40,912 nucleotides of DNA, from positions 1-40,912 of the IMG/VR virus record IMGVR_UViG_3300024182_000015; one strand, given 5' to 3'. Position numbers and translations under genes: made by a program. The stretch is from a virus. Of this stretch, positions 3,224-30,937 are shown in pieces. Position 1 is the first letter of the stretch; each line of letters opens with the position of its first letter. The notes under the pieces are model-generated. The model was not told the DNA's origin, did not search any database, and worked only from the letters and a program-made list of their open reading frames with translations.

Positions 3224-4177
3224 ATGACAAAAAAACTTAGCACCAGCATTTTCTCTTTCGTCCTGGCTCTGGCGGTTTTCATTGTTCCCGCCTTCGGCCA
3301 AACCGCGCTGACGCGAACCACGTTGAGCGCTGCAGTAAAAACCACCAGCCAGACGGCGATCGTCGTCGGATCGGTGACAGGGATCACGGCCACTTCGACC
3401 GTGATCTTCGTCGACGAGGAAGCGATGTTTGTGAACGCCGTTTCCCCGACCGGCACGACTCTCAGTGTGACTCGAGGCTATAACGGCACGCTGGCGCAGA
3501 CACACTTATCGAGCGCGCTGGTTTGGGCTGGGCCGCCTTTCGCCTTCACTTCCCAGGCGCCGAGCGGATCCTGCACTCGAGCGAATGTGCCGTATCTGCC
3601 GCAGATTTCTTTCGGCGTCGGCGGCGCGCAGCCGCAGATCTCCGATTGCGTCGGCGGCGTATGGTCGACATCAAATCTCGCGGCGCAAAACAACGTCCCG
3701 CTAGTGATCCTGTCGGCCAATTCCGGCGGCACGGCTTATACCTCGCTCAACACGAACGGGACGACCGTCGTTGCCGGCACGTTGTATTGTGCCGAGCTCG
3801 ACGTGACCGTGCCGAAGTTGCTGACTGGCCTGGCGCCGATGTTTGGCACCACGGCCGGCGGCAGCGATAAGCACCTGGTCGCGCTGCTCGATGCAAGCGG
3901 CAACGTGCTCGCAAATAGCGCCCTGGCCGGCGCAACGAACTCGACCGCATCGACTTACGTCAAGTATGCGTTCACGAGTCAGTACTACATCGTTCCAGGG
4001 CAGTATTACGCGTGCACGCAATCGAACGGCACCAGCGACACGATCCGGATGCTCGTCACAGGGACACAAGACACCTACCTGACGACCAGCAAAACCGGAA
4101 CGTTTGGCACCATTCCGACGATCACCGTCCCGACGGGTTTCACGACCGCGGTCGGGCCGTATATGTACGCGTACTAG
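3224..4177 (+). CDS. Exported capsid-decoration-like protein
   Basis: 317 residues. Residues 1-25 form a clear Sec signal peptide: Lys-Lys, then a hydrophobic stretch, with probable cleavage AFG|Q. Residues about 27-95 resemble a small beta domain recurrent in phage virion proteins (pattern T-T-L-S-A-A-V ... VDEE-M-V-AV ... LSVTRGYNGT-A-TH). The C-terminal 170 residues look like a beta-sandwich. The mature part has four cysteines. The gene follows the coat gene directly, the usual place for decoration proteins, and is followed by a strong terminator. A signal peptide on a protein expected to join cytoplasmic capsids is odd. It could instead be a secreted or outer-surface protein. The structural role is inferred from position and fold pattern. 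Confidence 0.6.
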   Translation: MTKKLSTSIFSFVLALAVFIVPAFGQTALTRTTLSAAVKTTSQTAIVVGSVTGITATSTVIFVDEEAMFVNAVSPTGTTLSVTRGYNGTLAQTHLSSALVWAGPPFAFTSQAPSGSCTRANVPYLPQISFGVGGAQPQISDCVGGVWSTSNLAAQNNVPLVILSANSGGTAYTSLNTNGTTVVAGTLYCAELDVTVPKLLTGLAPMFGTTAGGSDKHLVALLDASGNVLANSALAGATNSTASTYVKYAFTSQYYIVPGQYYACTQSNGTSDTIRMLVTGTQDTYLTTSKTGTFGTIPTITVPTGFTTAVGPYMYAY

Positions 4178-4197
4178 CTTCACTCTTCACAGCAGCA

Positions 4198-4241
4198 GAG
4201 CGCGGCCGAAGGCTCTTTATAGAGCGGCCGCGCTCGTTTTT
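4198..4241 (+). terminator. Rho-independent terminator
   Basis: A perfect 11-bp stem (GAGCGCGGCCG at 4198-4208 pairing with 4225-4235) encloses a small inner hairpin (CTCT-TTAT-AGAG) and is followed by GTTTTT. It ends the coat/decoration message. The next gene begins only 7 bases later if its first ATG is used, so the site may also act as an attenuator for the downstream tail genes. Confidence 0.85.
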
Positions 4242-4248
4242 CCCCGCT

Positions 4249-4752
4249 ATGCCTTTGAACGAAGCACGTCGCCGGCCAAGGCGCGAACACTATCCACTCG
4301 AATTCGATTTGACTGGCGTCCCGCGCGACAAAGCGACGCGCGATCGCCTGATGCAACAGCGAAAGGAACAAGAGCAAATGACACAAAATAGTTTTGTACT
4401 CGACAAGCTTTCCGAACAGGACAAGGCAGCACTGCTCGATCAGCTTCTGCAGGCCGCACCGGTCGGCCGCGAGATCGATCTCGGAAAGCCAGTCGTCACT
4501 CGCTACCAGTACCGCGAATTGCCGCGCCTGGTCTATCACCATGAAAGCGGCGCCGTGCTGCAGGTGAATGATCCCGCGCAGCTTAAAGCAGCGTTGAAAC
4601 GCGGCTTCAATCTCAAGCCTTCGGAAAAGCACGACTATTCGAAGCTGTCGGCCGCGAACGTTGCGCCGATCAAGGAAGTTGGGCCGGCTCGCGAAACCGC
4701 GATGAGCGCCGAAGAGCTCGCCGAGCTCGACGCCGCCGACGAAGACAAATAA
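4249..4752 (+). CDS. Hypothetical protein between coat and adaptor genes
   Basis: 167 residues from ATG 4249. Not recognised. The N-terminal 43 residues are very basic, the middle carries a helical stretch (LSEQDKAALLDQLLQAAP), and the C-terminus is acidic (AEELAELDAADEDK). A second start at 4378 has a better ribosome site (AAAGGAA nine bases upstream) and would give a 124-residue protein beginning MTQNSFVLDKL; the reading upstream of it still looks coding. The gene lies just after a terminator and abuts the gp4-like gene (stop at 4750-4752, next ATG at 4753), which suggests translational coupling and a virion or assembly role. The function is unknown. Confidence 0.65.
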   Translation: MPLNEARRRPRREHYPLEFDLTGVPRDKATRDRLMQQRKEQEQMTQNSFVLDKLSEQDKAALLDQLLQAAPVGREIDLGKPVVTRYQYRELPRLVYHHESGAVLQVNDPAQLKAALKRGFNLKPSEKHDYSKLSAANVAPIKEVGPARETAMSAEELAELDAADEDK

Positions 4753-5975: not shown

Positions 5976-5990
5976 TTGGAGTAATCTACC

Positions 5991-6410: not shown

Positions 6411-6585
6411 TCATTCGTTGCTGGCCTTCGTGATAGTAGCGATCGACGAAGGCCTCTAGGGATTTCTGTACCGGCCAGCGCTGTCGAGTGCAGGGCCATT
6501 CGTATTCGCGCCAATCAATCGCCCCGAGACTCGAGCGACCGCGCGGCCAGCCAGCGATCAGATCTCGCGCTTTTGTTTTCATCAT
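6250..6585 (-). CDS. Hypothetical protein, antisense, shares CATG start with the gp10-like gene
   Basis: 111 residues starting MMKTKARDL, with Met codons at 6585 and 6582. Rich in Trp, Arg and Tyr (IDWREYEW, QRW, ERWRRPP). It is not recognised. The codons up to about residue 85 look like the rest of the genome; the last 25 overlap the low-complexity tail of the plus-strand gene and are less convincing. It fills the 173-base gap before the gp10-like gene, and its ATG and that gene's ATG share the palindrome CATG at 6583-6586. There is no ribosome site on either strand there. It could be a real antisense gene or a fortunate open frame. Confidence 0.45.
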   Translation of the reverse strand: MMKTKARDLIAGWPRGRSSLGAIDWREYEWPCTRQRWPVQKSLEAFVDRYYHEGQQRMITAYLERWRRPPADPLIRLQLRIDELCYRGPAVNRLSYLHQRPTVLSPDPFES

Positions 6586-8032
6586 GGCTAAAAACTGGGG
6601 TTTCTGCGGACCATCCTATACCGCGCAGTCGCCGAACGTCGACGACGAAGACGCGATGAATTGTTATTGCGAGCGGTCGGAGTCGACCGGCGCGAAGGTG
6701 CCGATCGCGCTGCTCGGCACACCTGGCCGCAAAGTTTTTGCGCAGTTTCCCGAATCATCGATCCCGTTTGACTTCACCGTTAACGGCCGGACCTTTTTCG
6801 CCGCCAGCCAGCTTTACGAAGTCGACGCCAGCGGCAATGTGACCGTCCGCGGCTCGCTCGGCGCGGCGCCGACGCGGCCGACGATGATCACGGCAAACGA
6901 GACGCAACTCGTCATCCTTAACAATGGCGATCTGTTCGTGCTCACGCTGGCGACGAATGCTTTTATCGTCGTCAACATGGGCCAGTTTAACGGGCCGATC
7001 AATCAGATAGGCTTCGACGATGGCTATATCATCGCGACGCTGCAGGATTCGCACACCTTTCAGGTATCGAACCTGGAAGACGCGACGACCTGGTCAGGCC
7101 TCGACATCGCGACGTTGTCGCTGTTTCCCGACAACATTGTTTCGCTGCTTTGCGACCATCGCGAAGCCTGGTTTTACTCGGGGAAGAAAACCGCGGTTTA
7201 TTACAACGCCGGCGCCGGCTTTCCGCCTTTCATCCCAGTGCAAGGCGCCTTCCTCGAGGATGGCGCCGCGGCGACGTTTGCGACGGTACAGCTCGACAAC
7301 TCGGCTTTCTGGCTGGCGCAAGATGAGCGCGGCTTCCTCACCGCGAAGCGCGCGAGCGGTTATGCCGGCGAGCGCGTATCGACGCACGCGATCGAGAGCG
7401 AATGGCAGAGTTTCGCGACGACCGCGGACGCGATCGGTTGGACGTACCAGGAAAACGGACATCCCTTCTGGGTGATCCTTTTCCCGACCGTCAGTAAAAG
7501 CTGGGCGTATGACGTATCGACCGGCTTCTGGCATCGCCGCGGCTTCTGGAATGCGCGCAACGGCACTTATATCGCCGATCGCGCCATGTGTCACACCTTC
7601 AATTTTGGGAAGCACCTAGTCGGCGACTGGGCGAGCGGCACGGTCTACGATCTGTCGTCGAAGTACTTCGACGACTTCGGCAACGTGATTCGCGGCTATC
7701 GACGCACGCCGACAATTTCAGACGAAAACAAGTTTGTGCAATACCCGTCGATCGAATTCGACATCGACGCAGGCCTGGCGCCGATCCCGCCGATTCTCGA
7801 CGGCGACGGCCAGCCGCGGCCGGCACAGCTGATGCTTCGATGGTCGAACGATGGCGGCCGCACCTGGTCGAATACCTATTCCCTCAGTGTTGGCGCCGGC
7901 GGCGAATACAGCCATCGCGTGATCAAACGCATGTTGGGCCGAGCGCGAAAGCGTATCTGGGAAGTCAGTTGGACCGATCCGATTCCCTGGCGCTTTGCCG
8001 ACGCCTATCTCGAGCTAGTTCCGGAAGACTGA
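6584..8032 (+). CDS. Packaged-DNA stabilisation / tail hub protein, P22 gp10-like
   Basis: 482 residues (P22 gp10 has 472). The start, MAKNWGFCGPSYTAQSPNVD, is typical of this family, which forms the hexameric hub between the gp4 ring and the tail needle and carries the tailspikes. The rest is a repeating beta pattern consistent with the beta-propeller/wing fold, including a conserved-looking TWSGLDIATLSLFPDNI stretch and a C-terminal strand ending in RFADAYLELVPED. ATG 6584 is preferred over an in-frame GTG at 6488 because the family motif starts there. There is no Shine-Dalgarno site before it. Its stop overlaps the next start (TGATG). Confidence 0.85.
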   Translation: MAKNWGFCGPSYTAQSPNVDDEDAMNCYCERSESTGAKVPIALLGTPGRKVFAQFPESSIPFDFTVNGRTFFAASQLYEVDASGNVTVRGSLGAAPTRPTMITANETQLVILNNGDLFVLTLATNAFIVVNMGQFNGPINQIGFDDGYIIATLQDSHTFQVSNLEDATTWSGLDIATLSLFPDNIVSLLCDHREAWFYSGKKTAVYYNAGAGFPPFIPVQGAFLEDGAAATFATVQLDNSAFWLAQDERGFLTAKRASGYAGERVSTHAIESEWQSFATTADAIGWTYQENGHPFWVILFPTVSKSWAYDVSTGFWHRRGFWNARNGTYIADRAMCHTFNFGKHLVGDWASGTVYDLSSKYFDDFGNVIRGYRRTPTISDENKFVQYPSIEFDIDAGLAPIPPILDGDGQPRPAQLMLRWSNDGGRTWSNTYSLSVGAGGEYSHRVIKRMLGRARKRIWEVSWTDPIPWRFADAYLELVPED

Positions 8033-8400: not shown

Positions 8401-8861
8401 TCTTTCGTTCTCGAGACTATAAGGCGATTCGCGAGCTCTGCCTCGATCCATCGATCTTCCCTTATATCTCGGATGATTTCACCGCGGACGCGTCGACCTG
8501 GAAGCCGATCGAGAGCGACCAGGTCGTTTACTTGCTCGCACGCGACGCCGAAGGCCTCTGTGGCTTCGGGATCTTCCTACCGGACACCTGGGCGTGCTGG
8601 AAAGCGCATGTCGGCTTTCTCCCGCGCAGTTACGGCAGCGTAGCTTTCACAGCGTTTAAAGAAATGGTCGATTGGATGTGGACGAACACCAAAGCCGAGC
8701 GGATCGTCGGCGAGATCGTGCAACAGAACCGGCGCGCGATCCAGTTTGTGACTCGAGTCGGCTTTCGGCCTTACGGCGTGAATGAAAAGAGCTATCGCCG
8801 CGGCGGCCAGCTGCTCGACCAGGTCTGTCTCGGAATCTCGAAACCAAAGGCGGCTTTATGA
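8391..8861 (+). CDS. GNAT-fold protein, P22 gp14-like
   Basis: 156 residues from ATG 8391 (the GTG at 8379 would add MGHR). The C-terminal half has the GNAT acyltransferase pattern: KAERIVGEIVQQNRRAIQFVTRVGFRPYG, an Asn-Arg-x-Ala helix followed by the strand typical of ribosomal-protein N-acetyltransferases. In P22-like phages a GNAT-like protein (gp14, DUF2824) sits at exactly this place, just before the ejection genes, and is needed for particle infectivity. Whether this protein acetylates anything is unknown. The gene overlaps both neighbours by a few bases. Confidence 0.7.
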   Translation: MAVIFRSRDYKAIRELCLDPSIFPYISDDFTADASTWKPIESDQVVYLLARDAEGLCGFGIFLPDTWACWKAHVGFLPRSYGSVAFTAFKEMVDWMWTNTKAERIVGEIVQQNRRAIQFVTRVGFRPYGVNEKSYRRGGQLLDQVCLGISKPKAAL

Positions 8862-9547
8862 GTTTCGTATCTAACATCGTCGGCGGTTTGTTCGGCGCGA
8901 GTGCTGCCGGCAAGGCTTCAAACGCCGAAGTGCAAGGCGCCCAACAAGCGCAAAAGACCTTCGAGACGAATCAGACGAATGCCAACGCGGCCCAGCAGAC
9001 CGCGCTCGGCAACATCACTGCGGCCGAGCAGCCTTACCAGGCTGTCGGCTCGACGGCCGCCGGCGGCCTTAACAAGCTGCTGTCGACCGGCTTCACCGCG
9101 CCGACGCTCGCGGAAGCCGAAGCGACGCCAGGCTATCAATTCAATCTCGAGACTGGCAGGAATGCGATCGACGAGAATGCCGCAGCGAATGGCACGCTGA
9201 TGTCGGGCAATACCGGCGTCGCGCTCGAGAAATTCGGCCAGGGTCTCGCCCAGAACACTTACCAGCAGGCTTACCAGAATGCACTCAATTCGTACATGAC
9301 GAATTACCAGACACTCGCCGGCGGGACGCAGCTCGGCGAGACGTCGACCGGCCAGCTGGGCCAGGCCAATCTCACGACGGCCGGCAATACGGCAAACATC
9401 GATCTGACAGCGGCCCAGCAGATCGCGCAGCAACAGAACAACGCCGCGGCTGCGCGTGCGTCTGGCTATCTGGGCAAGGCTGCAGGCTACTCGAGCGCCG
9501 CCGGCGGCGTGACCAGTGGCCTCGAGACAGCGCTCTTTGGCGTCTAA
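8858..9547 (+). CDS. Ejection (DNA-transfer) protein, P22 gp7 position
   Basis: 229 residues, the same length as P22 gp7. Alanine, glutamine, asparagine and glycine rich, no cysteine. It begins with an amphipathic/glycine-rich segment (MSFVSNIVGGLFGASAAGKA) and contains long helices (AQQTALGNITAAEQPYQAVG, GQGLAQNTYQQAYQNALNSY). Proteins of this type are packaged in the capsid and ejected with DNA to span the cell envelope. It is the first of three consecutive genes matching the P22 order gp7-gp20-gp16. Its ATG overlaps the previous stop. Confidence 0.75.
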   Translation: MSFVSNIVGGLFGASAAGKASNAEVQGAQQAQKTFETNQTNANAAQQTALGNITAAEQPYQAVGSTAAGGLNKLLSTGFTAPTLAEAEATPGYQFNLETGRNAIDENAAANGTLMSGNTGVALEKFGQGLAQNTYQQAYQNALNSYMTNYQTLAGGTQLGETSTGQLGQANLTTAGNTANIDLTAAQQIAQQQNNAAAARASGYLGKAAGYSSAAGGVTSGLETALFGV

Positions 9548-9557
9548 GGGGGAATAA

Positions 9558-11114
9558 ATGGGAACCATCGCAGCACCGAACATCGTCCAAGACGCGCAGC
9601 AAATTGCCGCGGCGCCGGTCAATCAGCTCGCCGAATTTGCTCGCGTTGCCAATTTGAAGCAGCAGACTTCGGATCTCGCGCAACAGCAACAAGAGCGCGA
9701 GCTGCAGATGCAGCAACAGCGCCAGGCGATCGCCGACCAGGCCGCGCTAACGAAGACGATCTCGGAATTCGATCCCGCAAAGCACACGATCGCCGATCTT
9801 CCGAAGATGATCACGGCGAATGGTGGCTCCGGCCAGGCTGCTCTCAATGCCCAGCAAGGCATGATTACGCAGCGCAAAAGCCTCGCCGGCCTATCCGACG
9901 AGGAATTCGCGCGCCAGCAGAAGATCGCAGATCTCACGGCCGGCGTACATGACTCCGTCACGAACGCGAAGCCAGAGGATAAGCAAACCGTCTATTCGCA
10001 GGGCCTGCAGCAAATCGCCGCGGCCGGCGGCGATGTATCGAAAGAGCCGCAGCTCTACCCAGGCGACGACATCTTCGCGCAGCATCTGCCGGCGATCCGG
10101 CTGCATTCGGCGATCATGTCCGAAGCCGAGAAAGATCGCGAACTCACGGCCAAAGAGCAGGAAGCGCAAGCCAAGATCACCGGCGCCAATACTACACAGC
10201 AACGTCTGCAGGCCGAGCTACCAGGCGGCCCGCTCGAGGCGCCCGACAAAGCAGAATTGCGGTCCTATCTGCACGACGAAAAGGTGCCTGGGGAAACGCT
10301 TCCGCCGGCGCAACGCACGCCGGCCAGTTACGTCGCGTGGAAAGCAAAACAGTCGCCGACGGCGATGGTGCTCGGGAACATGCTCGGCCAGGGCGGCGCG
10401 AATACGGCGCTCGATCAGCAGGCCGAAAAGTACTTTCAGACCGGCATCTTGCCGAGCGGCTTCGCGCGCAGTCCTGGCACGACTGCCGCGATCATCAAGC
10501 GCTCGAATGAGTTACACCCTGGCGAAAGCCTGGCGTCGAATGAAGCGAGTTACAAAGCGAATTCCGGCTCGCTGAAAAAGCTGCAGACAAACTTCGATCA
10601 GGTCTCGGCCTTCGAAAACACTGCCGGCAAAAATATCGATCTTTTCCTCAACAAGTTAAGCCAGATCCCCGATCTCGGCGTGAAATTCGCGAACGTGCCT
10701 CTGCGAATGATCGACGAGAAGATGATCGGCAGCGACAACTATCAGGCCATGAAGGCCGCGCAGCAAACCGCGGCGTCAGAAGCCGCGAAAGTGCTCGGCA
10801 GCGCGAACGCGTCCGGAGTGTTGAGCGATTCGCAGAAGAAAGAGGCCGACGACATGTTGAGCGGAAACCTGTCGTACTCGGCCGCGAAAAAGGTCGCCGA
10901 CACGCTTAAACAGGATTTCTCAAATCGACATCAGTCCTACCAGGCGCAGATCGAGGACATTCAGCAGCGGCTCGGCGGTAAGCCGAATGCCGGCGCTGGC
11001 GGCCAGGGCGGCGGCACGACGAAGCATGTGATCAAGATCGGGAATAAACGGTACGAATACAAAGGATCTGGCGACACTGCAGATCTTGCGAACTATAACG
11101 CGCTGCCGCAGTGA
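9558..11114 (+). CDS. Ejection protein, P22 gp20 position
   Basis: 518 residues (P22 gp20 about 471). Almost entirely helical, with a Gln-rich coiled coil at residues about 25-60 (DLAQQQQERELQMQQQRQAI) and a second helical region at 330-460. A glycine-rich linker precedes a short beta hairpin near the C-terminus (KHVIKIGNKRYEYKG). There is a strong ribosome site, AAGGGGGAATAA, before ATG 9558. Expected to be carried in the head and released at infection as part of the trans-envelope conduit. Assignment is by position, size and composition. Confidence 0.7.
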   Translation: MGTIAAPNIVQDAQQIAAAPVNQLAEFARVANLKQQTSDLAQQQQERELQMQQQRQAIADQAALTKTISEFDPAKHTIADLPKMITANGGSGQAALNAQQGMITQRKSLAGLSDEEFARQQKIADLTAGVHDSVTNAKPEDKQTVYSQGLQQIAAAGGDVSKEPQLYPGDDIFAQHLPAIRLHSAIMSEAEKDRELTAKEQEAQAKITGANTTQQRLQAELPGGPLEAPDKAELRSYLHDEKVPGETLPPAQRTPASYVAWKAKQSPTAMVLGNMLGQGGANTALDQQAEKYFQTGILPSGFARSPGTTAAIIKRSNELHPGESLASNEASYKANSGSLKKLQTNFDQVSAFENTAGKNIDLFLNKLSQIPDLGVKFANVPLRMIDEKMIGSDNYQAMKAAQQTAASEAAKVLGSANASGVLSDSQKKEADDMLSGNLSYSAAKKVADTLKQDFSNRHQSYQAQIEDIQQRLGGKPNAGAGGQGGGTTKHVIKIGNKRYEYKGSGDTADLANYNALPQ

Positions 11115-12868
11115 CGTCACCGACTCTAACCTGGGAACAATATCAACAGTTACCGCCGGACAAACGCCGGCGGCCGTTGACGTCGGCGGAATACGCCGCG
11201 CTGACACGTGCACAGAAGCAAGCCGCAGGCCTCGAGGATCCCGACGAAGGCGCGCCGGCAGACTTTGCCGGCCCAGTCTTCCCAAATCCTGATCACATAC
11301 AGCCGCAACTCGACACCGATCCAGAGATGCCCGTTACGCGGCTGCCCTCTGGTGTGAGTTTCCAGGCCGACACGTGGAAAGGGCCGGCGCCGGCTCTAGA
11401 AATCGCCGCAAAGATGGATCCACAACAAATCAAACTTCCGCCAGGGGCGACACTCGAAACCCCGCCGCCGCCGGCAGCGATGAAATTGCCGCCTGGGGCG
11501 ACGCTCGAGACGGCGCCGCCGGCAGCCGAAGACGAGCCTGGCATTCTCGATCGCGAGATCCCGATCACAAACCACTGGGCCGCGACCGCATCTGGCCTGC
11601 AGTCTGTCGCCCGCGGCACTCGCGATGCCGTCAAAGGCATGTTTTCGCTACTGGATCCGCGGCCGCAGAATCCAGAGGAAGAGGCCGTCGCGGCCCAGGC
11701 GCCGGGCGGCATCCCTGGCGGCGGTCACGCTGCTTTACCGGTCTATCGGATCTTGCGATCGATCGGGCACACCGCGCAAGACGCGACGCAGATCGCCGGC
11801 GCGATTCATGACATCAATAACTCGCCGGATCCTGTCGGCACTTACGAAAAAGCCGCGCAGGAAACAGCCGGCCAGGGCGCCGGCCAGGCGATCACTGCTC
11901 TCGCGACCGAAGGCCTCAGCCGCGGCGTGACATCGGCGGCGAAAGCGATCGCGAAAAATCCCACGGCCGCAGTTACGGCGCCGGTACGTCTGGCTGCACG
12001 GACAGCGGAAACGGCTCTCAATCAAAAGCTGATTCCGCTGAAAAAGCTGGCGAATCTCAACACGCCGGCCGACGTCGCCGAATCGCTCGACGTCAAAGTG
12101 CCTGGTCGCGATCTCGGATTAACTGTCGTACGGCACCCTGTCACCGGTAAGCCGGAATTTTCCGACGTCGTCGCCGCGCAGAAACAGGCCGCGGCGCCGC
12201 CAGCAGCTGCAGCGGCACCAGCGCCCACACCGGCAGCGGCGCCGCCAGCTGCAGCGGTCCAACCGCCGCCGGCACCTGTGCCGGCGCCTGCAGCGGCAGC
12301 GGCACCAGCTGCAGCACCAGAACTGCCGACGAGCTCGCCGGCAGCTGCCAAAGTCACTCCCCAGGGCGAAACCTATCTCGATCGCTTAAACAAGCTGGCC
12401 GCCGAGATCCGCGCGGAGGAAGCCGCCGGCAAAGGGCCGAAAGCCGAAGTGCCTGGCCCAGAGGAAAACTTAGAGCAAAAGCTGAAAGACAGCCTGGCTG
12501 TCGTCGAAGCGCGCAAGGCTGCAGGCCAGTCGCCCGTCACTGGCGCCGCGCCGGTCGAAGTGATTCCCCGCGGCGGCGTACATACGACGGCCGAGCCGAA
12601 AGCGCTGCTCGATCGCTGGGGCGTCGACGAAAACAGCTTCACCGAAGGCCGATCGCAGACTCGAGGCATGAAGCCGGACGAGTCGGCGGCGGCGATCGCG
12701 AAGCTGAAAAAGGCCTACCAGAGCGGCACACCAGTGCAGCCAGTGCTCGAGACACGCGACGCGGCAAACAACATTATCGACGTCGACGGCCGCGGCCGTG
12801 CCTTGGCAGCTCACAAAGCAGGAATTGAAAGGATCCCGATTATCGTGCGGCGGATTGGCGTGCAGTGA
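11111..12868 (+). CDS. Large internal/ejection protein with ParB-like C-terminus, P22 gp16 position
   Basis: 585 residues (P22 gp16 about 609), starting with a GTG that overlaps the previous stop. Features in order: a Pro-rich N-terminus with a tandem repeat (KLPPGATLET twice, about residues 113-140), a helical and glycine-rich region (about 160-330), a long Ala/Pro low-complexity linker (about 355-415), and a C-terminal domain (about 480-585). The last part, PVLETRDAANNIIDVDGRGRALAAHKAGI, followed by IPIIV, resembles the ParB/sulfiredoxin fold (Asp-Gly-x-x-Arg-Ala pattern). This could be a DNA-handling or nuclease activity delivered with the genome. The 3' end overlaps the antisense cREC gene by 29 bases. 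Confidence 0.65.
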   Translation: MTSPTLTWEQYQQLPPDKRRRPLTSAEYAALTRAQKQAAGLEDPDEGAPADFAGPVFPNPDHIQPQLDTDPEMPVTRLPSGVSFQADTWKGPAPALEIAAKMDPQQIKLPPGATLETPPPPAAMKLPPGATLETAPPAAEDEPGILDREIPITNHWAATASGLQSVARGTRDAVKGMFSLLDPRPQNPEEEAVAAQAPGGIPGGGHAALPVYRILRSIGHTAQDATQIAGAIHDINNSPDPVGTYEKAAQETAGQGAGQAITALATEGLSRGVTSAAKAIAKNPTAAVTAPVRLAARTAETALNQKLIPLKKLANLNTPADVAESLDVKVPGRDLGLTVVRHPVTGKPEFSDVVAAQKQAAAPPAAAAAPAPTPAAAPPAAAVQPPPAPVPAPAAAAAPAAAPELPTSSPAAAKVTPQGETYLDRLNKLAAEIRAEEAAGKGPKAEVPGPEENLEQKLKDSLAVVEARKAAGQSPVTGAAPVEVIPRGGVHTTAEPKALLDRWGVDENSFTEGRSQTRGMKPDESAAAIAKLKKAYQSGTPVQPVLETRDAANNIIDVDGRGRALAAHKAGIERIPIIVRRIGVQ

Positions 12869-13235
12869 CGATCTCGAAATCGCCGTAGCGGGCGATCGTT
12901 GCTTCGGGGAGGATCCGCCGCATCGCGGCGACGCCGTCTTCGTTTTTGGAGTGGATGACGACACGGCCGGCAAACTTCGTTCTGGCGAGATAGCGAGCGA
13001 TTTCCTTGCCATTGCCGTGCTGCCGCTCAGGAAACCCGGCATCTTCCCAGCTGAGATCGTGATCGAGGAAGACGAGATCGAAGGACTCGGCCGAAAGGAT
13101 CTCGAGCGCTTTCTCTGACGTCTTCGCTTCGCGATAGGCGATCGGCGAGGCCAGGCGCTGCCGAAACCAGCGCAAACGCTCTTCGGTATCGTCGAGGACG
13201 AAGACGCGCCAATGCTCAAGAACGTGAAAAACCAT
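12840..13235 (-). CDS. Receiver-like cREC domain protein, antisense in late operon
   Basis: 131 residues on the minus strand. It matches the pattern of the cREC family (cyclic-phosphate-processing receiver domain): RVFVLDD (Asp15-Asp16), then FDLVFLDHDL (Asp58, His59, Asp60), HGNG at 73-76, and VVIHSKNEDGVAAM (His95, Asn98). These His/Asp/Asn positions differ from phospho-receivers and suggest an enzyme rather than a signalling switch. The biochemical role is not settled; the family name reflects a prediction. It is convergent with the gp16-like gene and divergent from the tailspike gene, sharing the palindrome CATG at 13233-13236 with its start. GAGGAG and AGAAGG lie upstream at less than ideal distances. 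Confidence 0.7.
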   Translation of the reverse strand: MVFHVLEHWRVFVLDDTEERLRWFRQRLASPIAYREAKTSEKALEILSAESFDLVFLDHDLSWEDAGFPERQHGNGKEIARYLARTKFAGRVVIHSKNEDGVAAMRRILPEATIARYGDFEIVTARQSAAR

Positions 13236-14721
13236 GACTAACTCTAACCTTCTCCGCTCCTCTTTCGTAGGGCACCGAAGAGCCTTGCTGCTCGGCCTGT
13301 TCGGGCTATTACTGGCTAGTTACCTTGGTGCACAGACGGCCGTCGTCCTCGCGCCGACGCCGCGGTTTACTCAGCTCGACAATTCCGGCCGGCCGCTGTC
13401 GTTTGGGTGCGTCTTCACCTACCAGGTCGCGTCGACGACGCCCCTGGCGACGTACACGGATTACACCGGCGTCACCGTCAATCCGGATCCCGTCATCCTG
13501 ACCGCCGGCGGCACAGCGAATATCTGGCTTCTGGCCGGCCAGGCTTACACTTTCCGCGTGAAATCAGCCGGCGGCACGAATTGCGCATCCGGCAGCACAC
13601 TTTATACAGTGGATGGTATCGGCGGCGGCTCGAGCGTTTTGACGACCGCGGTCACTTACTCGACAACTCCGACGTTTATCGATGCGGCGCAGATCCAGCT
13701 CTTCACCATCACTCTGACCGGCAACGCCAGCGCCCAGCCGATGAGTTTCGTAGGCGTCACGCCGCCAGGCCTGATCTATTTTCAGATCACACAAGACGGA
13801 TCCGGCGGCCATACGTTTGCATGGCCGGCCAATACTGTCGGCGGCTGCACGATCGCTGCCGGAGCGGGCCAGGTGACGACCCAGGCCTTTATCTATAACG
13901 GCACAAACGCCACAGCGACCGGCCCATGCGTGACCGGCAACGGGCCCGCGGTCAACGTCGGCAGCCTGGTCGCGACGGGCAACGTCACAGCCTCGCGTCT
14001 GATCTCGACGATCACGACTGGCACGTCGCCTCTGGTCGTCACGTCGACGACCGAAGTCGCGAATCTGAATTCGAATCTTTTGGAAGGCTTCGACTGGGCC
14101 AGTCCTGGCACGATCGGATCGACCGCGCCGAATACTGGCGCGTTCACGACTTTCGTCCTGAATAGCTCGACGATACAAACCGGCGTGCAAGGCAGCGACA
14201 CGCACCTTTTGAGCGCCGGCACCGTCGCGAACAGCTCGCCGATCCTGTGCACCGACGCGAATGGCGGCGCCACAACTTCGAACTGTGCTGCCGGCAGTAC
14301 GCCTCAACGTGTCGTGCTGGGCTCGCCTGTCGGGATGACGGGCAATCTGCAGGCTACGATCCTCACTGAGTCGGTGACGTTTCCTTCCGGCGTCGGCACC
14401 TATCGCGCCGATGTTCGGTATGGGGTTTTCATCACGGCCGGATCGAATGCCTGCGTCGCCGAAGTCGTCGACGCTACCAATAGTCACGCTTTTGCGATCA
14501 GCGCCCAGGATTCGAACGGCGTCGGTTATATCGGCCTGTCTGGCGCGGAAGTGTCGGCCAACACTTACGCGGCCGGCGCGACCGTCACTTTCAACCTGGC
14601 GGCGCAATGCAATGATGCCGCGGCGCCTCATCTGGTCGGTGCAACCGTCAACAGCGGTCTTCTGACGATGTCGCCGAATGGTGTGACGTTTCTTGAAGTG
14701 ATCCCAGTACTCAGTAACTAA
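13234..14721 (+). CDS. Tailspike/tail-fibre protein with Sec signal peptide
   Basis: 495 residues. Residues 1-33 form a signal peptide (basic n-region with His-Arg-Arg, then LLLGLFGLLLASYLGA) with cleavage at A|Q34. Right after it is a phage head-binding-type domain (about 40-115): FTQLDNSGRPLSFGCVFTY, TTPLATYTDYTG, NPDPVILTAGGTANIWL, the pattern used by tailspikes to attach to the tail. The rest is beta-rich with fibre-like repeats (NVGSLVATGNVTASRLIS). The mature part has eight cysteines. It is the first gene of the receptor-binding block. A signal peptide before a virion-attachment domain is unexpected; see the findings. No ribosome site is evident before the ATG. Confidence 0.7.
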   Translation: MTNSNLLRSSFVGHRRALLLGLFGLLLASYLGAQTAVVLAPTPRFTQLDNSGRPLSFGCVFTYQVASTTPLATYTDYTGVTVNPDPVILTAGGTANIWLLAGQAYTFRVKSAGGTNCASGSTLYTVDGIGGGSSVLTTAVTYSTTPTFIDAAQIQLFTITLTGNASAQPMSFVGVTPPGLIYFQITQDGSGGHTFAWPANTVGGCTIAAGAGQVTTQAFIYNGTNATATGPCVTGNGPAVNVGSLVATGNVTASRLISTITTGTSPLVVTSTTEVANLNSNLLEGFDWASPGTIGSTAPNTGAFTTFVLNSSTIQTGVQGSDTHLLSAGTVANSSPILCTDANGGATTSNCAAGSTPQRVVLGSPVGMTGNLQATILTESVTFPSGVGTYRADVRYGVFITAGSNACVAEVVDATNSHAFAISAQDSNGVGYIGLSGAEVSANTYAAGATVTFNLAAQCNDAAAPHLVGATVNSGLLTMSPNGVTFLEVIPVLSN

Positions 14722-14741
14722 CCAAAGAAAGGAAACTCTCT

Positions 14742-17084
14742 ATGTTTCGCCGTTTGCTCGTCGCTCTGTTTTTTGCTTTCGCTCTCGGCCCGCCGCTCTT
14801 CGCGCAAGCCAAGGCTGGGCCGTTCACAATCAATTCTTCGACATCGCCCTGCGCGACGATCACCGTCACCGGTAACTCGACTGTCGGCATCACTGTGACC
14901 GGAACGTTTTCGGCGACGCTGCAGCCAGAAGTCGCGATGGTTAGCCGCGACGGCACGAACGCCGGCTCGCCTCAAAACACGCAAGTCACGCCATCGACGT
15001 CGACCACAGCTCAATCGACCATCACCGCGGCCGGCGTCTACAAAGGCGCTGTCGGCGGCTTCGATACGTTCCTGGTCTGTGTGACGTCGTTCGTCAGCGG
15101 CTCGGCGACGATCTATCTGAATACGACCACGGCCGTAAACGCATCTTTGTTCGGCAGCGGCGCCACACCTGGCACCGTCACCGTCAGCGGAGTGCCGACG
15201 AATGGCGATTGCACGAAGTTTACGGGCTCGACGGTCGTCGCCGACGCTGGCTTTCCTTGTATGGCACCGTCCGGAGTGCCGACGCAACCGGTACAGAATG
15301 GCCTGATCGCCGAATACCGCATTCTGCCAACCGAAACCGCCGGCGCTCTGGTCGACTATTCGGGAAACGGGAATGGTGCGACCGGCACGGTCGGCACGGC
15401 GCCGACGATCATCGCCGGCTCTGGTGGGCTGAATTTCACCGGCAACGGCGCCGTAAGCTTGCCGGCCGCGTTAAATGCTGGGGTCACTTTCCAGTTTGTG
15501 ATCGGCTTTCAGTTCGCCGGCGCGGGCCAATATAACGCGATGATCGCCGGCGGGCCCAGCGCGCCGACGAACTGCACCCAGTTTTTCCTCGACGACCAGC
15601 ACAACAACGTCAACGCCGGCACGAATTACATTTTCGAAACCTGGAAGACGAACTTTCGCAACTTCTGGCGCTACACGGTTCAAGGCTCTGCACTTGTCAC
15701 CTGGGAAATCGGCAATGGCGGCACCGATCAGTTTGCGCTCAATAATCAAACCCTGCAGACGTCGGGACAAGATACGGGATTACTCAATGCTGGAAACTAC
15801 CAGCTGGGCGGCTGGACCGGCGGCGGCGGCAGCTGCCCTTCGGTGTCGACCTACTTCACGGGGAAGATCTATTACGTTCTGGTTTATAGCCGGCAGCTCA
15901 CCCAAGCCGAAGTGAATTCCAACAACGAATTTTTACAGGACGTGCTCGCTGCACGCGGCCTAAATATTGCCCTGGCGAGCACTTCGACGACCGACACTTT
16001 TCTTTTGGACGGTGATAGCGAGATCGGTTTCATCACAAACGCGATGATGAATTTCCCCGCGACGGTCAATGTGTACAACTTGAGCGCGTCGGGTTACACC
16101 ATGGAAACGCTGACCTCTGACGCCCCGAATGCGGTCGATCCGTACTATCAGACGGCCGCGAATCGCGAAGCTGTGCTGATCTGGGGCGGGACAAACGATT
16201 CCGGCGGCAGCTTCACGACGACTCTGAATTACCTCAATGGCTATTGTCGCGCGCGCCATCTCCGCGGCTTCAAGTGCGGCGTGATGACCATGATGGATCG
16301 CAGCGCATCGGACACGTTTAAAAACAATTACGACACTGCGATTCGCACATCCTGGCCGGTTTTCGCTGACTTCCTGGTCGACGCCGGCGAAGATCCTAAC
16401 CTCGGCTGCGATGGCTGCTCGGCGAATACGACGTACATGAGCACCGGTCTGCATCCGACCACGGCGTCGGCAAACAACATTCTCGCGCAGTTTATGCAGC
16501 GCGGGTTAAATCGCGCTTATGGGCACCTGAATTGGACGACAGCGACGACCTACACGACCGGCGCGCCGGCCGCGACTGCGATCACGGCCGCCAGCGAAGC
16601 GACGAACACCGTCACGATCACGTCGACACTGAATCCGCCTGTCGGATCCTGCGTTGTCGTCGCCGGCGTGACGCCCGCCGGTTATAACAACGTCGCCGGC
16701 GAATGCTGGAATGTGCTGACAACGTCGGCAACTAATTTCACGTATTTCAACTTTACTTCTGGCCTGGGCGCCGGCACGATTTTCGGCACTGCAGCCGTGC
16801 CGCGCCAGCTCGACGCCGATGTCTATACGATCCTGGCCGGCTCGGCGACTTCGCCGAGTTTCACTCTCGAGCCTTGCGGCGGCTATACCGGCCAGAATAT
16901 CTACCTGAAAAACGAGAACACGACGAGCCCATGGGTCATTACGCCATTCGCGTCGGAAACGATCGATGGCGCCGCTTCGCTCACGATGCCGACGGCCTCG
17001 AGCGGGAATTTTCCCGTCGTGGTTTTGCAATCGCAGCTGGTCAGCTCTTCCGCCGGCGGCTGTAACTGGGTACGTCTGCAATGA
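14742..17084 (+). CDS. Exported LamG plus SGNH-hydrolase fibre protein
   Basis: 780 residues. Signal peptide 1-21 with cleavage FA|Q22; a beta domain about 25-135; a LamG/concanavalin-like domain about 186-400 (GLIAEYRI ... LVDYSGNGNGATG ... KIYYVLVYSRQLTQAEV); an SGNH/GDSL hydrolase domain about 412-590; and a beta-rich C-terminus. In the SGNH domain, Ser426 lies in GDS (block I), Gly451 in block II, and Asn485 in GGTND (block III). His571 is in block V, but the usual Asp three residues before it is Thr568. Such domains deacetylate surface polysaccharides. The mature part has 14 cysteines. A good ribosome site (AAAGGAAA) precedes ATG 14742. Likely a receptor-modifying spike or secreted esterase. 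Confidence 0.7.
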   Translation: MFRRLLVALFFAFALGPPLFAQAKAGPFTINSSTSPCATITVTGNSTVGITVTGTFSATLQPEVAMVSRDGTNAGSPQNTQVTPSTSTTAQSTITAAGVYKGAVGGFDTFLVCVTSFVSGSATIYLNTTTAVNASLFGSGATPGTVTVSGVPTNGDCTKFTGSTVVADAGFPCMAPSGVPTQPVQNGLIAEYRILPTETAGALVDYSGNGNGATGTVGTAPTIIAGSGGLNFTGNGAVSLPAALNAGVTFQFVIGFQFAGAGQYNAMIAGGPSAPTNCTQFFLDDQHNNVNAGTNYIFETWKTNFRNFWRYTVQGSALVTWEIGNGGTDQFALNNQTLQTSGQDTGLLNAGNYQLGGWTGGGGSCPSVSTYFTGKIYYVLVYSRQLTQAEVNSNNEFLQDVLAARGLNIALASTSTTDTFLLDGDSEIGFITNAMMNFPATVNVYNLSASGYTMETLTSDAPNAVDPYYQTAANREAVLIWGGTNDSGGSFTTTLNYLNGYCRARHLRGFKCGVMTMMDRSASDTFKNNYDTAIRTSWPVFADFLVDAGEDPNLGCDGCSANTTYMSTGLHPTTASANNILAQFMQRGLNRAYGHLNWTTATTYTTGAPAATAITAASEATNTVTITSTLNPPVGSCVVVAGVTPAGYNNVAGECWNVLTTSATNFTYFNFTSGLGAGTIFGTAAVPRQLDADVYTILAGSATSPSFTLEPCGGYTGQNIYLKNENTTSPWVITPFASETIDGAASLTMPTASSGNFPVVVLQSQLVSSSAGGCNWVRLQ

Positions 17085-17827
17085 TCCGGCACCTTCGCAT
17101 ATTCGCGCTGTTCGTCTTCTGCCCTGCGTTGTTCGCGCAAACGCAGGCCGGCCCGCCTTGGACCTATACGCCGAGCAGTGTTCCAGCTGGGGTAATCATC
17201 CTGACGGTGACGAGCTGCCCGACTGGCTTTTCCGAAGTCGCCGCGCTTGATGGCAAGTTTCTGCAGGGCACGCTCGCGGCCCATGGGGACGTCGGCGGCA
17301 CTGGCGGAAATGCGACCATCACGCCGAGCGGATCCGTTACGGCGCCTACTTTCACCGGCGACGTCAACACGACATCGGCTGTTAGCGCTGGCACGCCCGC
17401 CGGCACTAACGGCACGGTCAGTTTTACGCCAGCCGGAACGAACGGCACCACGACGACCGGCGCGACGTCTGCCGGAACGCCAGCCGGCACGAATGGCGCC
17501 ACGGCGACCAGCGGCAACTGTGCGGCGACAAACATCGCAGCTGGTACTGGATCGACGACAGCGTGCAAGGGCACAGCGCCAAACCTGACGGTGCCGGCGG
17601 AAACCTTCACTGGATCGGCTCTTGCGACTCATACACACACCGTCCCCGCGGAAACTTTCACCGGCTCGGCCGGCACAGTGCCGGCGGAAACCTTCACCGG
17701 CTCGGTTCTCGCGACTCATACGCACACCGTTACGCCCAGCGGCACGAACAGCGCGCCGACTTTCAGTGGCAACGCCGTCGACCCGCGGCCGCAGTTTGTG
17801 AAAGTGATTTTCTGTTCCAAGAATTGA
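17081..17827 (+). CDS. Exported collar-like fibre protein with tandem repeats
   Basis: 248 residues. Signal peptide 1-19, cleavage FA|Q20. Residues about 33-80 follow the phage tail-collar pattern (PAGVIILTVTSCPTGFSEV, then LDGKFLQGT and GGTGGNATITPSGSV). After this come repeats: AGTPAGTNGT-type units (about 105-145), then VPAETFTGS three times, two of them followed by ALATHTHT or VLATHTHT. The His-Thr-His motif is typical of metal-binding short tail fibres. The mature part has four cysteines. The start overlaps the previous stop (ATGA). It ends RPQFVKVIFCSKN, resembling the C-termini of collar proteins. Confidence 0.65.
   Translation: MIRHLRIFALFVFCPALFAQTQAGPPWTYTPSSVPAGVIILTVTSCPTGFSEVAALDGKFLQGTLAAHGDVGGTGGNATITPSGSVTAPTFTGDVNTTSAVSAGTPAGTNGTVSFTPAGTNGTTTTGATSAGTPAGTNGATATSGNCAATNIAAGTGSTTACKGTAPNLTVPAETFTGSALATHTHTVPAETFTGSAGTVPAETFTGSVLATHTHTVTPSGTNSAPTFSGNAVDPRPQFVKVIFCSKN
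17591..17730 (+). repeat. Tandem coding repeats in the collar-like gene
   Basis: Three imperfect copies of a unit encoding VPAETFTGS. The first and third are followed by sequence encoding a THTHT loop; the second is shorter. The DNA copies differ at third codon positions, so they are not very recent duplications. Copy-number change here would alter fibre length. Confidence 0.7.
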
Positions 17828-17834
17828 AAACCCC

Positions 17835-18461
17835 ATGAACGCCAAAACTTCTGTTCTCACCTTCGCGCTGATGCTGCTCGTCTGTTCGTTTGCACGCGGG
17901 CAGAATGTGCGCTACTCGGCCTCTTTCCCGTCGATCTCGTCGACGACGTCGACGCCCTGGCTGATCGCGAATATCCCGCCGAACTCGCCAAAGATCGCCG
18001 TTTGCAATTCGCCGGCGAATGCGCTGCCGTGCACGAATTTCGCGACGACTTACACCAGCGCCGGCGCGGCCTGTCCGAACGGCTCGCAAGATACGCCCGA
18101 TCCGCAGCCGTCGGCCTGTCAGCCGATCGGCGACGCGCAGGGCAATATCGGATTCTGGGCCGCGCCTGGCAAATACGATTACACCGTCTGCGTCGGCACG
18201 AACTGTTTCGGCCCTTACACCATCACGCTCGCAGCATCTGACAAAAACGGAACCTGCACGATGTCATCCGGCCAATGTGCCGCCATCACTTTCACTACGG
18301 CTTATGCGACGACACCGACCTGCACTGTTACCTGGACCGGCACCGGCACGCTGACCGGGTTTCTTTCGAGTCAGCGCACCAGCTCCGGCCTGCAGCCGAA
18401 ATCGAGCGTCAATTCCGACACCGCAGTCGTCGACTGGAAGTGTCAAGGGAGCCCGAACTAG
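17835..18461 (+). CDS. Exported Cys-rich fibre-like protein
   Basis: 208 residues. Signal peptide 1-22, cleavage RG|Q23. The mature N-terminal half is a diverged version of the attachment domain seen in the 13234 gene: TSTPWLIANIPPN ... TFATTYTSAG-like strands, then DPQPSACQPIGDAQGNIGFWAAPGKYDYTVCVG, which parallels NPDPVILTAGGTANIWL...YTFRV. The second half is a beta-rich domain. Ten cysteines in the mature protein suggest several disulfide bonds and thus folding outside the cytoplasm. It is the last receptor-block gene before lysis functions, and its stop touches the next ATG. The function is unproven; likely a fibre or surface-binding protein. Confidence 0.6.
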   Translation: MNAKTSVLTFALMLLVCSFARGQNVRYSASFPSISSTTSTPWLIANIPPNSPKIAVCNSPANALPCTNFATTYTSAGAACPNGSQDTPDPQPSACQPIGDAQGNIGFWAAPGKYDYTVCVGTNCFGPYTITLAASDKNGTCTMSSGQCAAITFTTAYATTPTCTVTWTGTGTLTGFLSSQRTSSGLQPKSSVNSDTAVVDWKCQGSPN

Positions 18462-18758
18462 ATGGCAGATCCCGAGATCCAAACGCCGCCGGAATTCCAG
18501 TTCTACGTGCAGCAAAACGGGATCCGGAAAACCCAGCGCGAATTTGAACGCGACTCGCTGCCAGGCCTGCGCAAGTCCCTGAGCACGGCGCATGACAACC
18601 TGCAGCGCCAGGTCGGGATCAACACGCGGCTTTATGCGTCGCTGCTGGCGGCCCAGCGATCGCTGGGCTCGGTGAAACTGGCGCTCTGGATCACGTCGGC
18701 GGCCGTCGTCGCACAGTGGGGCATCATGCTCGTTTTTCTTGACCATCTTTTGCGATGA
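18462..18758 (+). CDS. Small membrane-anchored protein of the lysis cassette
   Basis: 98 residues. The N-terminal 65 are polar and helical (IRKTQREFERDSLPGLRKSLSTAHDNLQRQ), followed by one hydrophobic segment (about 72-94, LALWITSAAVVAQWGIMLVFL) and a short tail. It directly follows the fibre gene and overlaps the endolysin ATG by four bases. It could be a pinholin-like protein, a spanin partner or a membrane anchor. The topology is visible; the role is inferred from position. Confidence 0.6.
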   Translation: MADPEIQTPPEFQFYVQQNGIRKTQREFERDSLPGLRKSLSTAHDNLQRQVGINTRLYASLLAAQRSLGSVKLALWITSAAVVAQWGIMLVFLDHLLR

Positions 18759-19225
18759 ACGACATACAACGCACATTCATCGGCGCCGCTGCAGCCGAGG
18801 CCAGTAAGGCCAGCCATCCTTTCCCGCTGATGGCAGCCTGCGAAGCCGCGCTCGAGTCGAACTATGGCCTAAGCGAGCTCGCACGCGAAGGTAACAACCT
18901 TTTCGGCATGAAGCAGCACAAGCATCCGGCTTTCGGGACGCTATCACTGCCGACGCGCGAATTCGTGAATGCCGAATGGATCGCGACCACTGCGGAGTGG
19001 GTGAAGTATCCGGACTGGCTTTCCTGCTTCGCCGATCGCCTGGCGACGCTGCAGCGGCTCGCCAGCGTGTATCCGCATTACGCGGCCGCGCTCGCCGCCG
19101 GCGATGCCGAAAGCTATATCGCTCAAGTTTCGCTCACCTGGTCAACGGATCCGAACCGCGGCGCGAAAGTGTTGTCGATCTATCAGGAATTTTCAGGGGG
19201 AACCAATGCTTCAAAAACTTCGTGA
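18755..19225 (+). CDS. Endolysin, glucosaminidase family
   Basis: 156 residues. It carries the signature of the mannosyl-glycoprotein endo-beta-N-acetylglucosaminidase family (Glucosaminidase, FlgJ/LytG-like): ACEAALESNYGLSELAREGNNLFGMK, with Glu34 as the probable catalytic acid. It would cleave the glycan backbone of peptidoglycan at lysis. There is no signal peptide, so it needs a holin to reach the wall. It sits between three small membrane-protein genes, a normal lysis arrangement. The end overlaps the next gene by 20 bases. Confidence 0.85.
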   Translation: MNDIQRTFIGAAAAEASKASHPFPLMAACEAALESNYGLSELAREGNNLFGMKQHKHPAFGTLSLPTREFVNAEWIATTAEWVKYPDWLSCFADRLATLQRLASVYPHYAAALAAGDAESYIAQVSLTWSTDPNRGAKVLSIYQEFSGGTNASKTS

Positions 19226-19517
19226 CAAATGGAATGGTTTGCCGCATCAGATGCAGGCTGCGATCGTCGCGTTTCTAGTCGCGGCCGGCGCGAGCCTGGT
19301 GCACGCGGCCGAAGATGCAGGCCTCAAGGGTTGCTCGACTTGGGGATGCGTCGGGAAGACGCTTGCCCTGGTCTTTAGTCCGCACATGGTCTTTACCGCG
19401 GTTTTTGCCGGCGCAGCCGCTCTCAAGGTGTTCTATACGCTGCCTAACGGTACGGCCAAGCTGATCGAGCAGGCCCAGGCAGCGCAGCCAACGAATCCAG
19501 GCCAGCCGCAGAAGTGA
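19206..19517 (+). CDS. Holin-like membrane protein
   Basis: 103 residues with two hydrophobic segments (about 17-34, QAAIVAFLVAAGASLVHA, and about 50-75, LALVFSPHMVFTAVFAGAAAL) and a polar C-terminal tail. ATG 19206 follows a strong AGGGGGAACCA site inside the end of the endolysin gene. Two-helix topology and location next to the endolysin fit a class II holin, but no holin family motif is recognised. The downstream gene starts with a GTG overlapping its stop. Confidence 0.65.
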   Translation: MLQKLRDKWNGLPHQMQAAIVAFLVAAGASLVHAAEDAGLKGCSTWGCVGKTLALVFSPHMVFTAVFAGAAALKVFYTLPNGTAKLIEQAQAAQPTNPGQPQK

Positions 19518-19849
19518 ATCCCTTCGACGCGATCGCGACGTTTGTTCTCGGCAAGATCAAAGAGGGCATTTGGGCGGCATGGCTCAAGTTTCTCTTTGAG
19601 TTAACGTTCTCGGCCGTCGTGTCGTTTCTGTTCGTCTGCGGCACGGTGCTCGCGTCGACGCGCTCGGCCGCGCTCTCGATCGGCAGCGGAATGATCGCCG
19701 CTTCCCTGTCGCTCACGGTCCTTTTCCGCCGCGAAAGTTCGAAGTTAACGAAAGGCATGCTGGTCGTTTTGCCGTCGGCCGAAGCCGCGCAAGAGCTCGC
19801 GAACGATTTCCAAATAATTCAGAAAGCCTCTGAGGATAAAAACAAATGA
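19514..19849 (+). CDS. Second membrane protein of the lysis cassette
   Basis: 111 residues from GTG 19514 (overlaps the previous stop). Two hydrophobic segments, about 28-48 (LFELTFSAVVSFLFVCGTVLA) and 52-72 (AALSIGSGMIAASLSLTVLF), followed by a charged helical tail. It could be a holin, an antiholin paired with 19206, or another membrane protein. Not recognised further. It is coupled to the next gene by an ATGA overlap. Confidence 0.6.
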   Translation: MNPFDAIATFVLGKIKEGIWAAWLKFLFELTFSAVVSFLFVCGTVLASTRSAALSIGSGMIAASLSLTVLFRRESSKLTKGMLVVLPSAEAAQELANDFQIIQKASEDKNK

Positions 19850-20343
19850 AAACCTTGCTCGCTGTTCTCTGTGTTCTCTGTCTTTCCGCGGCCGTGCTGG
19901 CCCAGGCACCGGCGCCGGCAGTTTCGCCGGTCGTCAATATCTACGCCGGCGGGATCTCATTCAATGGCAGCGGCTCGCCTGCGATCGCCGGAACTGGGCT
20001 CTATGCTCGGCTGGTTTCGGATGGCACAGGCACCTATCTGTTTACGGTCGTCGATGCCCTGCCGGCGAGTCTCAAGCCGTTTACCGTGACATCGAACTTC
20101 GGTGCCGGCGTTGCGCAGAAAATCGTCACGATCGGCAAGGTGCCGATCTTTATCCCGACATCGGCGGGCATCTCTTACAACGGAACGAATACCGGCTGGG
20201 CCTGGTCGACCGGCGCGCTCGCATCGATTCGAATAAAAAACAACTGGCGGATCTTTCCGAATGTCCGGATCGTCAAGTCGTCAGTGTCGAACGGCAGCGG
20301 ATACCAGCCGATCGTCGGCGTGTTGTTTGGCTGGGGCCAGTAA
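19846..20343 (+). CDS. Exported beta-rich, possibly outer-membrane, protein
   Basis: 165 residues. Signal peptide 1-19, cleavage LA|Q20. The mature part has no cysteine and alternates short hydrophobic/aromatic strands with turns (GLYARLVSDGTGTYLFTVVDA, ISYNGTNTGWAWSTGALASIRIKNNWRIFPNVRIV), ending in VGVLFGWGQ. This looks like a small outer-membrane beta-barrel, comparable in idea to lambda Lom, which changes the lysogen surface. It closes the late plus-strand operon and converges with the minus-strand gene 2 bases away. The barrel call is an inference from the pattern. Confidence 0.55.
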   Translation: MKTLLAVLCVLCLSAAVLAQAPAPAVSPVVNIYAGGISFNGSGSPAIAGTGLYARLVSDGTGTYLFTVVDALPASLKPFTVTSNFGAGVAQKIVTIGKVPIFIPTSAGISYNGTNTGWAWSTGALASIRIKNNWRIFPNVRIVKSSVSNGSGYQPIVGVLFGWGQ

Positions 20344-30817: not shown

Positions 30818-30881
30818 CTTGCTTCCCTGCCCTGTTTGGCCCCAAAGTAGCTCTGATTCGAAAGCCAATGCTCCATTCCAT

Positions 30882-30899: not shown

Positions 30900-30937
30900 G
30901 TGATCACTCGTCATCCGAAAGTCCTTGCTGCGTCCAG

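Follow-up and report, generated by a model that had tools for sequence, protein, structure and literature searches.

Virion proteins of tailed phages are taught to assemble in the cytoplasm, and a Sec leader on a fibre or a head decoration therefore raises the question of where such a part would mature and how it would reach the particle. The window analyzed here, a virus record of 40,912 bases taken at its full length, poses this question for several genes: the original prediction had named seven open reading frames with signal peptides, had described their products as virion-type proteins, and had pointed to a clash with ordinary cytoplasmic assembly, on which our analysis agrees.

The two ends of the window overlap by about 137 bases at 98.5%, so the genome is close to complete. 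It encodes a P22-type set of coat, scaffold, portal, large terminase, and two tail accessory proteins, together with a P22-type ejection protein, an endolysin, and an integrase. With its coat, scaffold, portal, tail accessory, and ejection genes all present, the virus is a P22-like podovirus. The genes that serve as points of reference below are:

1925..3160, plus strand: P22-type major coat protein, no signal (PF11651, E=2e-28; phrog_283)
6584..8032, plus strand: tail hub/head-closure protein, to which the fibre presumably docks, no signal (phrog_578, E=1.6e-85; signal in 0/18)
8858..12868, plus strand: three ejection-protein genes, no signal (phrog_598 for the first, the second and third assigned by position only; signal in 0/35)
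18755..19225, plus strand: endolysin, adjoining the fibre cassette (phrog_3513, E=4e-18)

Relatives of the coat protein were found on 80 virus contigs and six bacterial genome contigs. Five of the latter are labelled Acidobacteria, Acidiferrales, or Acidicapsa, one of them being a 1.16-Mb scaffold of an isolate, Acidicapsa dinghuensis; the sixth is labelled Betaproteobacteria, possibly through a binning error. Because the bacterial contigs with coat relatives mostly carry acidobacterial labels, the host group is most likely Acidobacteriota.

Signal peptides were called with a heuristic of our own, which asks for a charged n-region, an uncharged hydrophobic core, and small residues at positions -3 and -1. 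Among the 51 called genes it picked exactly the seven previously named, those starting at 3224, 13234, 14742, 17081, 17835, 19846, and 37761, whose leaders are thereby predicted to have the n-region charge, core, and small -3/-1 residues of Sec/signal peptidase I substrates. Whole-protein shuffles pass at a rate of 2.1%, and about one chance call is therefore expected among 51 genes. Read by eye, the predicted cleavage sites (FG|Q, GA|Q, FA|Q, FA|Q, RG|Q, LA|Q, and SA|Q) bear out the earlier claim that every cleavage falls after Ala or Gly and before Gln, and all seven proteins consequently have the +1 Gln of the Q-rule. A Pfam search of the seven gave nothing above the cut-off. Separate from this set, and absent from the original prediction, is a minus-strand gene of Tat type (5975-5484).

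The description as virion-type proteins stands for the fibre and decoration proteins considered below, all with Sec leaders, but two of the seven are without such support, as nothing marks them as virion proteins:

19846..20343, plus strand: secreted protein encoded after the lysis genes (heuristic; predicted signal peptide 19846-19902)
37761..37973, plus strand: small secreted protein, not virion-type, with a mature part of about 52 residues and one cysteine pair (heuristic; predicted signal peptide 37761-37814)

For the first, the loci searched yielded no homologue, and its mature part is free of cysteine; the second, a 70-residue protein, has one or two weak relatives.

One explanation for the leaders would be a prediction artefact or wrong start codons, a concern that arises since both the start choice and the signal calls are heuristic. 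We rejected it, as the signals are conserved across families with diverged sequences, and consider it very improbable. Ribosome-binding sites are present at the starts chosen for the signal-bearing genes. Across 17 near-complete genomes, the window included, the signal occurred in none of 164 core proteins (terminase, portal, scaffold, coat, tail accessory, adaptor, and ejection proteins), while it was flagged in 16/17, 9/13, 9/9, and 7/8 members of the four exported families. Inspection of the misses revealed one gene piece at a contig end, four wrong start calls with an in-frame upstream leader, and one real absence; even one of the 16 flagged proteins (G681) had been called at a wrong downstream start, its true start bearing a leader (L033). 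The real absence, in G686, concerns a genuine homologue of the 13234 protein with a head-binding domain, and export is therefore not obligatory. This exception emerged in the later full-genome checks, the first inspection having found a leader in every homologue of the 13234, 14742, and 17835 proteins. The predicted signals are thus kept across homologues rather than failing for most of them, and to judge from these comparisons the signal is confined to outer virion parts.

The putative decoration gene lies immediately downstream of the coat gene:

3224..4177, plus strand: putative head-decoration/fibre-type protein directly 3' of the coat gene (predicted Sec signal, homologues, structural model)

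Its predicted signal peptide spans 3224-3298, with cleavage between G25 and Q26, and its mature part contains four cysteines. The position next to the coat gene is conserved, and in all 67 loci inspected the homologues have a leader ending in A/G-Gln despite diverged hydrophobic cores. All 53 distinct sequences of the family carry a signal, and their alignment has only ten invariant columns, which include the +1 Gln (Q26) and Cys142, with Cys117 nearly invariant. The model of the protein (pLDDT 86) was related by Foldseek to a cyanophage A4 capsid protein and to phage fibre and tail-tip proteins, the A4 capsid protein being the one PDB match below E 0.001; no match was found in the deposited phage collection. 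The invariance of the +1 Gln in 53 diverse sequences, together with the small -3/-1 residues, argues against an uncleaved leader that would hold the proteins, or their assembly, at the inner membrane. The hydrophobic N-termini would suit such an anchor, which we nevertheless regard as a very slim possibility.

The first gene of the fibre cassette encodes a protein with a head-binding domain:

13234..14721, plus strand: predicted exported tail fibre/spike (conserved signal; the signal-less tail spike of PBR31 occupies the syntenic position)
13333..13644, plus strand: head-binding (virion-attachment) domain of this protein, with an extra cysteine pair (homology to residues 1-96 of the PBR31 tail spike; Foldseek)
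14323..14718, plus strand: C-terminal C1q/TNF-like domain of this protein, limits approximate (AF2 model; Foldseek to C1q-like and Pgp3 C-terminal domains)

The predicted signal peptide of this protein (13234-13332, cleavage A33|Q34) precedes a mature part with eight cysteines, which was modelled with a confident N-terminal domain, a low-confidence shaft, and the C1q/TNF-like domain at the C-terminus. Foldseek matched the N-terminal domain to the Pam1 and Pan3 tail complexes and to the head-binding domain of the P22 tailspike (fold matches 2vky, 2vnl, 2xc1, 7eeq_A), and the first 100 mature residues match the N-termini of tail spikes from Xanthomonas phage PBR31 and from Vibrio and Shewanella phages. 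Homologues from 12 genomes cover the head-binding domain, but those that cover the C-terminus come from 5-7, the usual modular pattern of virion receptor-binding proteins.

We compared 77 distinct homologues of the head-binding domain (E below 1e-20). In 45 of them the protein starts within two residues of the domain and has no signal, and we accordingly rejected the idea that a signal is a general property of fibres with this domain. The other 32 carry a leader, nine of these being assigned by eye, since the heuristic had either started too far downstream or turned the leader down for a charged residue close to the cleavage site; the leader before the domain measures 33 residues in the window protein and 16-54 in its relatives. 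The cysteine pair within the domain occurs in 30/32 signal-bearing homologues vs 0/45 without a signal. The two signal-bearing sequences lacking the pair belong to the Acidobacteriota genome set, and one of the two lies in an apparent prophage remnant with three successive signal-bearing fibre-like genes. A tree of the homologues requires two state changes, with modest support. Searches for the attachment domain gave four hits in 396 genomes of the Acidicapsa phylum and three in 274 from the class to which the betaproteobacterial record belongs, numbers that do not allow hosts to be compared.

The cassette continues with three further genes:

14742..17084, plus strand: predicted exported fibre with weak similarity to SGNH/GDSL hydrolases (PF13472, E=0.008, below the cut-off)
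17081..17827, plus strand: predicted exported collar/fibre-like protein (collar likeness by eye; no Pfam hit)
17835..18461, plus strand: predicted exported fibre-cassette protein (conserved signal)

Their predicted signal peptides span 14742-14804, 17081-17137, and 17835-17900, and their mature parts contain 14, 4, and 10 cysteines, respectively. The signal is present in all nine full-genome homologues of the first protein and, after correction of one start-call error, in all homologues of the third, which range from 208 to 1298 residues. That the putative decoration protein and the fibre cassette are exported is, on these sequence features, close to certain.

Export as such does not place these proteins on the virion, and the main rival reading holds that they act off it: with fibre domains borrowed for the task, they would serve as decoys, exclusion factors, adhesins, or polysaccharide-modifying enzymes on the cell surface or in the surrounding medium. 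The SGNH-like similarity of the 14742 protein would fit an enzyme, and two precedents point the same way. In Porphyromonas gingivalis phages, Q-rule signal proteins without an assigned function were proposed to modify the outer membrane (PMC10367356), and Pantoea WceF is a tailspike-like enzyme that is exported through Tat and belongs to the cell (PMC7949094). WceF shares with the present proteins the combination of export and a tailspike-like fold, but it is encoded by a bacterial gene, has a Tat signal, is biofilm-related, and involves no virion. Against an off-virion role, the conserved virion-binding domain would serve no purpose there, and the genes share a single strand of the late block, adjoining the endolysin and the other lysis genes, with no sign of promoters of their own: a promoter/terminator scan of the cassette gave no enrichment over shuffles. 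Moreover, the cassette replaces the normal tail spike of the syntenic phage PBR31, so that, with an off-virion role, no obvious receptor-binding protein would be left in most of these phages. We therefore regard off-virion action as possible but doubtful. As a point against late attachment of exported fibres, which we favour below, a beta-helix-like protein without a signal is encoded at 35873 and could act as a cytoplasmic spike.

Cysteine content also bears on export. We counted cysteine parity in proteins from the 17 genomes that contain cysteine and are at least 120 residues long, using mature parts for signal-bearing proteins. Even and odd counts stood at 64:7 in the signal-bearing set vs 127:180 in proteins without a signal (P 9e-15, a value that is too small because the sequences are related, which inflates both the parity and the Fisher values). 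The direction of this bias is what disulfide-bonded exported proteins would be predicted to give. Cysteine density per 100 residues was 1.96 in signal-bearing proteins, vs 0.94 overall and 0.43 in core virion proteins. The 35873 protein, however, contains seven cysteines in spite of having no signal, and cysteine content alone is therefore no proof.

Cysteine pairs are not expected to form in the reducing cytoplasm, which argues against a dual use in which export is incomplete and a cytoplasmic fraction, either leader-bearing or made from an internal start, joins virions while the exported fraction acts otherwise. A Met does occur internally, close to the cleavage site, in a few homologues (L096/L103, MAQVAVSP), but the window protein has none and the leaders have strong hydrophobic cores, making dual use improbable. 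Off-virion action is more probable than either incomplete export or an uncleaved anchor.

The leaders also resemble those of the likely host. In 400 kb of the Acidicapsa chromosome, x-[AGS]-Gln occurs near the N-terminus of 35/58 signal-type proteins vs 7/52 internal windows, a bias that resembles the Q-rule of Bacteroidetes (PMC5837995, PMC10653852); the rule was described for Bacteroidetes, whereas the likely host here belongs to Acidobacteriota, and Acidobacteria are unmentioned in the 2018 paper among these two. Since Acidicapsa proteins favour the same A/G-Gln sites, the phage leaders look tuned to the host, and this match to the host's own cleavage sites speaks further against an uncleaved anchor. 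In the P. gingivalis phages, too, predicted cleavage exposes Gln and matches the export habit of the host (PMC10367356), but the proteins considered here are of fibre and decoration type, one of them with a virion-attachment domain, and the host phylum is another.

Among known systems, PBR31 shares the gene order of the window, with a P22-type coat, tail tubes, three internal proteins, a tail spike, a fibre-like gene, and lysis genes. Unlike the 13234 protein, its tail spike has no signal and no cysteine pair in the N-terminal part, which its authors name the "virion-binding domain" (PMC10975493). The gene after the spike or fibre, orf035 in PBR31 and gp19 in Burkholderia phage BcepC6B, encodes a protein that has a Sec-type signal and whose mature cysteines are even in number. 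In the passages located in the PBR31 genome paper, a signal peptide is noted only for the esterase gp40 (PMC10975493), and experimental work on BcepC6B tested gp15 and not the signal-bearing gp19. The two phages, both podoviruses of proteobacteria, represent a related and apparently unremarked case, with one signal-bearing gene beside a normal tail spike or fibre. This qualifies the suggestion of an undescribed mode of maturation: a search of open-access full text turned up neither such an assembly order in tailed phages nor any tail spike that combines Sec export with a head-binding domain, and on signal peptides of phage fibres only the P. gingivalis phage paper (PMC10367356) came close, yet PBR31 and BcepC6B each have the signal-bearing gene described above.

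The P22 tailspike begins at its head-binding domain and is made in the cytoplasm, and the decoration protein of phage L binds finished P22 capsids. The P22 tailspike (gp9), which can join heads in vitro, has its N-terminal head-binding fold in common with the 13234 protein, and the latter would also serve as a receptor-binding part of a P22-like virion, but it has a leader before the domain and a cysteine pair within it. In vitro, P22 heads accept tail parts (Israel 1967, cited in PMC3741392).

We favour, at a probability of roughly 0.55, Sec export, cleavage, periplasmic disulfide formation, and then attachment to finished particles at lysis. The 3224 protein and the cassette products (13234-18461) would be Sec/signal peptidase I substrates of an acidobacterial host, made late and moved across the inner membrane, where removal of the leader would expose an N-terminal Gln and the mature proteins would fold and form disulfides in the periplasm. 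The coat, portal, tail hub, and ejection proteins would remain in the cytoplasm and package DNA. Lysis would then mix the two compartments, and mature fibres and decorations would dock on finished particles through the head-binding domain and a capsid-binding surface. The signals, their conservation and limitation to outer parts, the paired cysteines, and the fold of the head-binding domain are observed here, and from them we infer cleavage, periplasmic residence, and attachment at lysis; secretion signals and paired cysteines on the outer parts suggest that these parts probably mature outside the cytoplasm, and the exported set resembles parts that can be added to a finished particle, namely decorations and tail spikes. 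Of the options originally offered, joining after lysis is favoured over decoys and uncleaved anchors as the more probable reading because the fibre predicted to be exported has kept its head-binding domain, the cassette sits late and on a single strand beside the lysis genes, and conservation extends to both cleavage sites and cysteine pairs. A point against this route is that fibres diluted at lysis would need fast and tight binding.

For the lineage as a whole, a group of short-tailed viruses that probably infect soil Acidobacteria, we see an even chance that assembly is split, with a DNA-filled core built in the cytoplasm and with decorations and fibres that are secreted, begin with Gln or pyro-Glu, are disulfide-bonded, and are fitted at lysis. 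The related prophage in the isolate Acidicapsa dinghuensis makes this two-compartment idea testable. For gene finders, the analysis carries a caution, as such N-termini tend to get trimmed. If true, an export code restricted to the outermost parts would amount to a new maturation route, with disulfides in phage fibres and receptor-binding proteins processed by host export enzymes, and there is a real chance that the route itself is new.

Predicted Sec-type signals also occur on one gene each of two cultured proteobacterial phages, and the mature parts of both products contain an even number of cysteines:

22151-22960 of L101 (Xanthomonas phage PBR31), orf035, structural or tail-fibre annotation, Sec-type signal
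9001-10074 of L102 (Burkholderia phage BcepC6B), gp19, structural or tail-fibre annotation, Sec-type signal

Two further loci follow. The first carries three successive fibre-like genes with signals and looks like a prophage remnant; in the second, the cysteines of the fibre lie at different positions.

14693-19999 of L259 (chromosome from the Acidobacteriota set), apparent prophage remnant
30014-31021 of G686 (L247; acidobacterial P22-like group), fibre with the head-binding domain, without signal

Three genes of the window itself are listed here:

35873-36898, beta-helix-like, cysteine-rich protein without signal, between the terminase and portal genes
30089-30817, FkbM-type methyltransferase-like ORF, read by eye
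5484-5975, minus strand, small gene, Tat-type at its N-terminus

The first product is a possible cytoplasmic spike, and the FkbM-like ORF sits in the genome half distant from the virion genes. The Tat-type gene and its relatives (e.g., in L006, L023, L025, L225, and L238) share the N-terminus M[ND]RRxFL...QAIPxxRVWSFP, followed by hypervariable tails. Twelve of 20 tails match coat-protein pieces of this phage group (best E 8e-10), against 0/20 in the reversed control and 6/474 other small proteins; the proteins with these coat-like fragments would be exported or anchored.

At predicted cleavage sites of acidobacterial signal peptides (Acidicapsa dinghuensis chromosome, L193-L212), Gln is favoured after cleavage. 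This +1 preference resembles the Q-rule, in a phylum other than Bacteroidetes.
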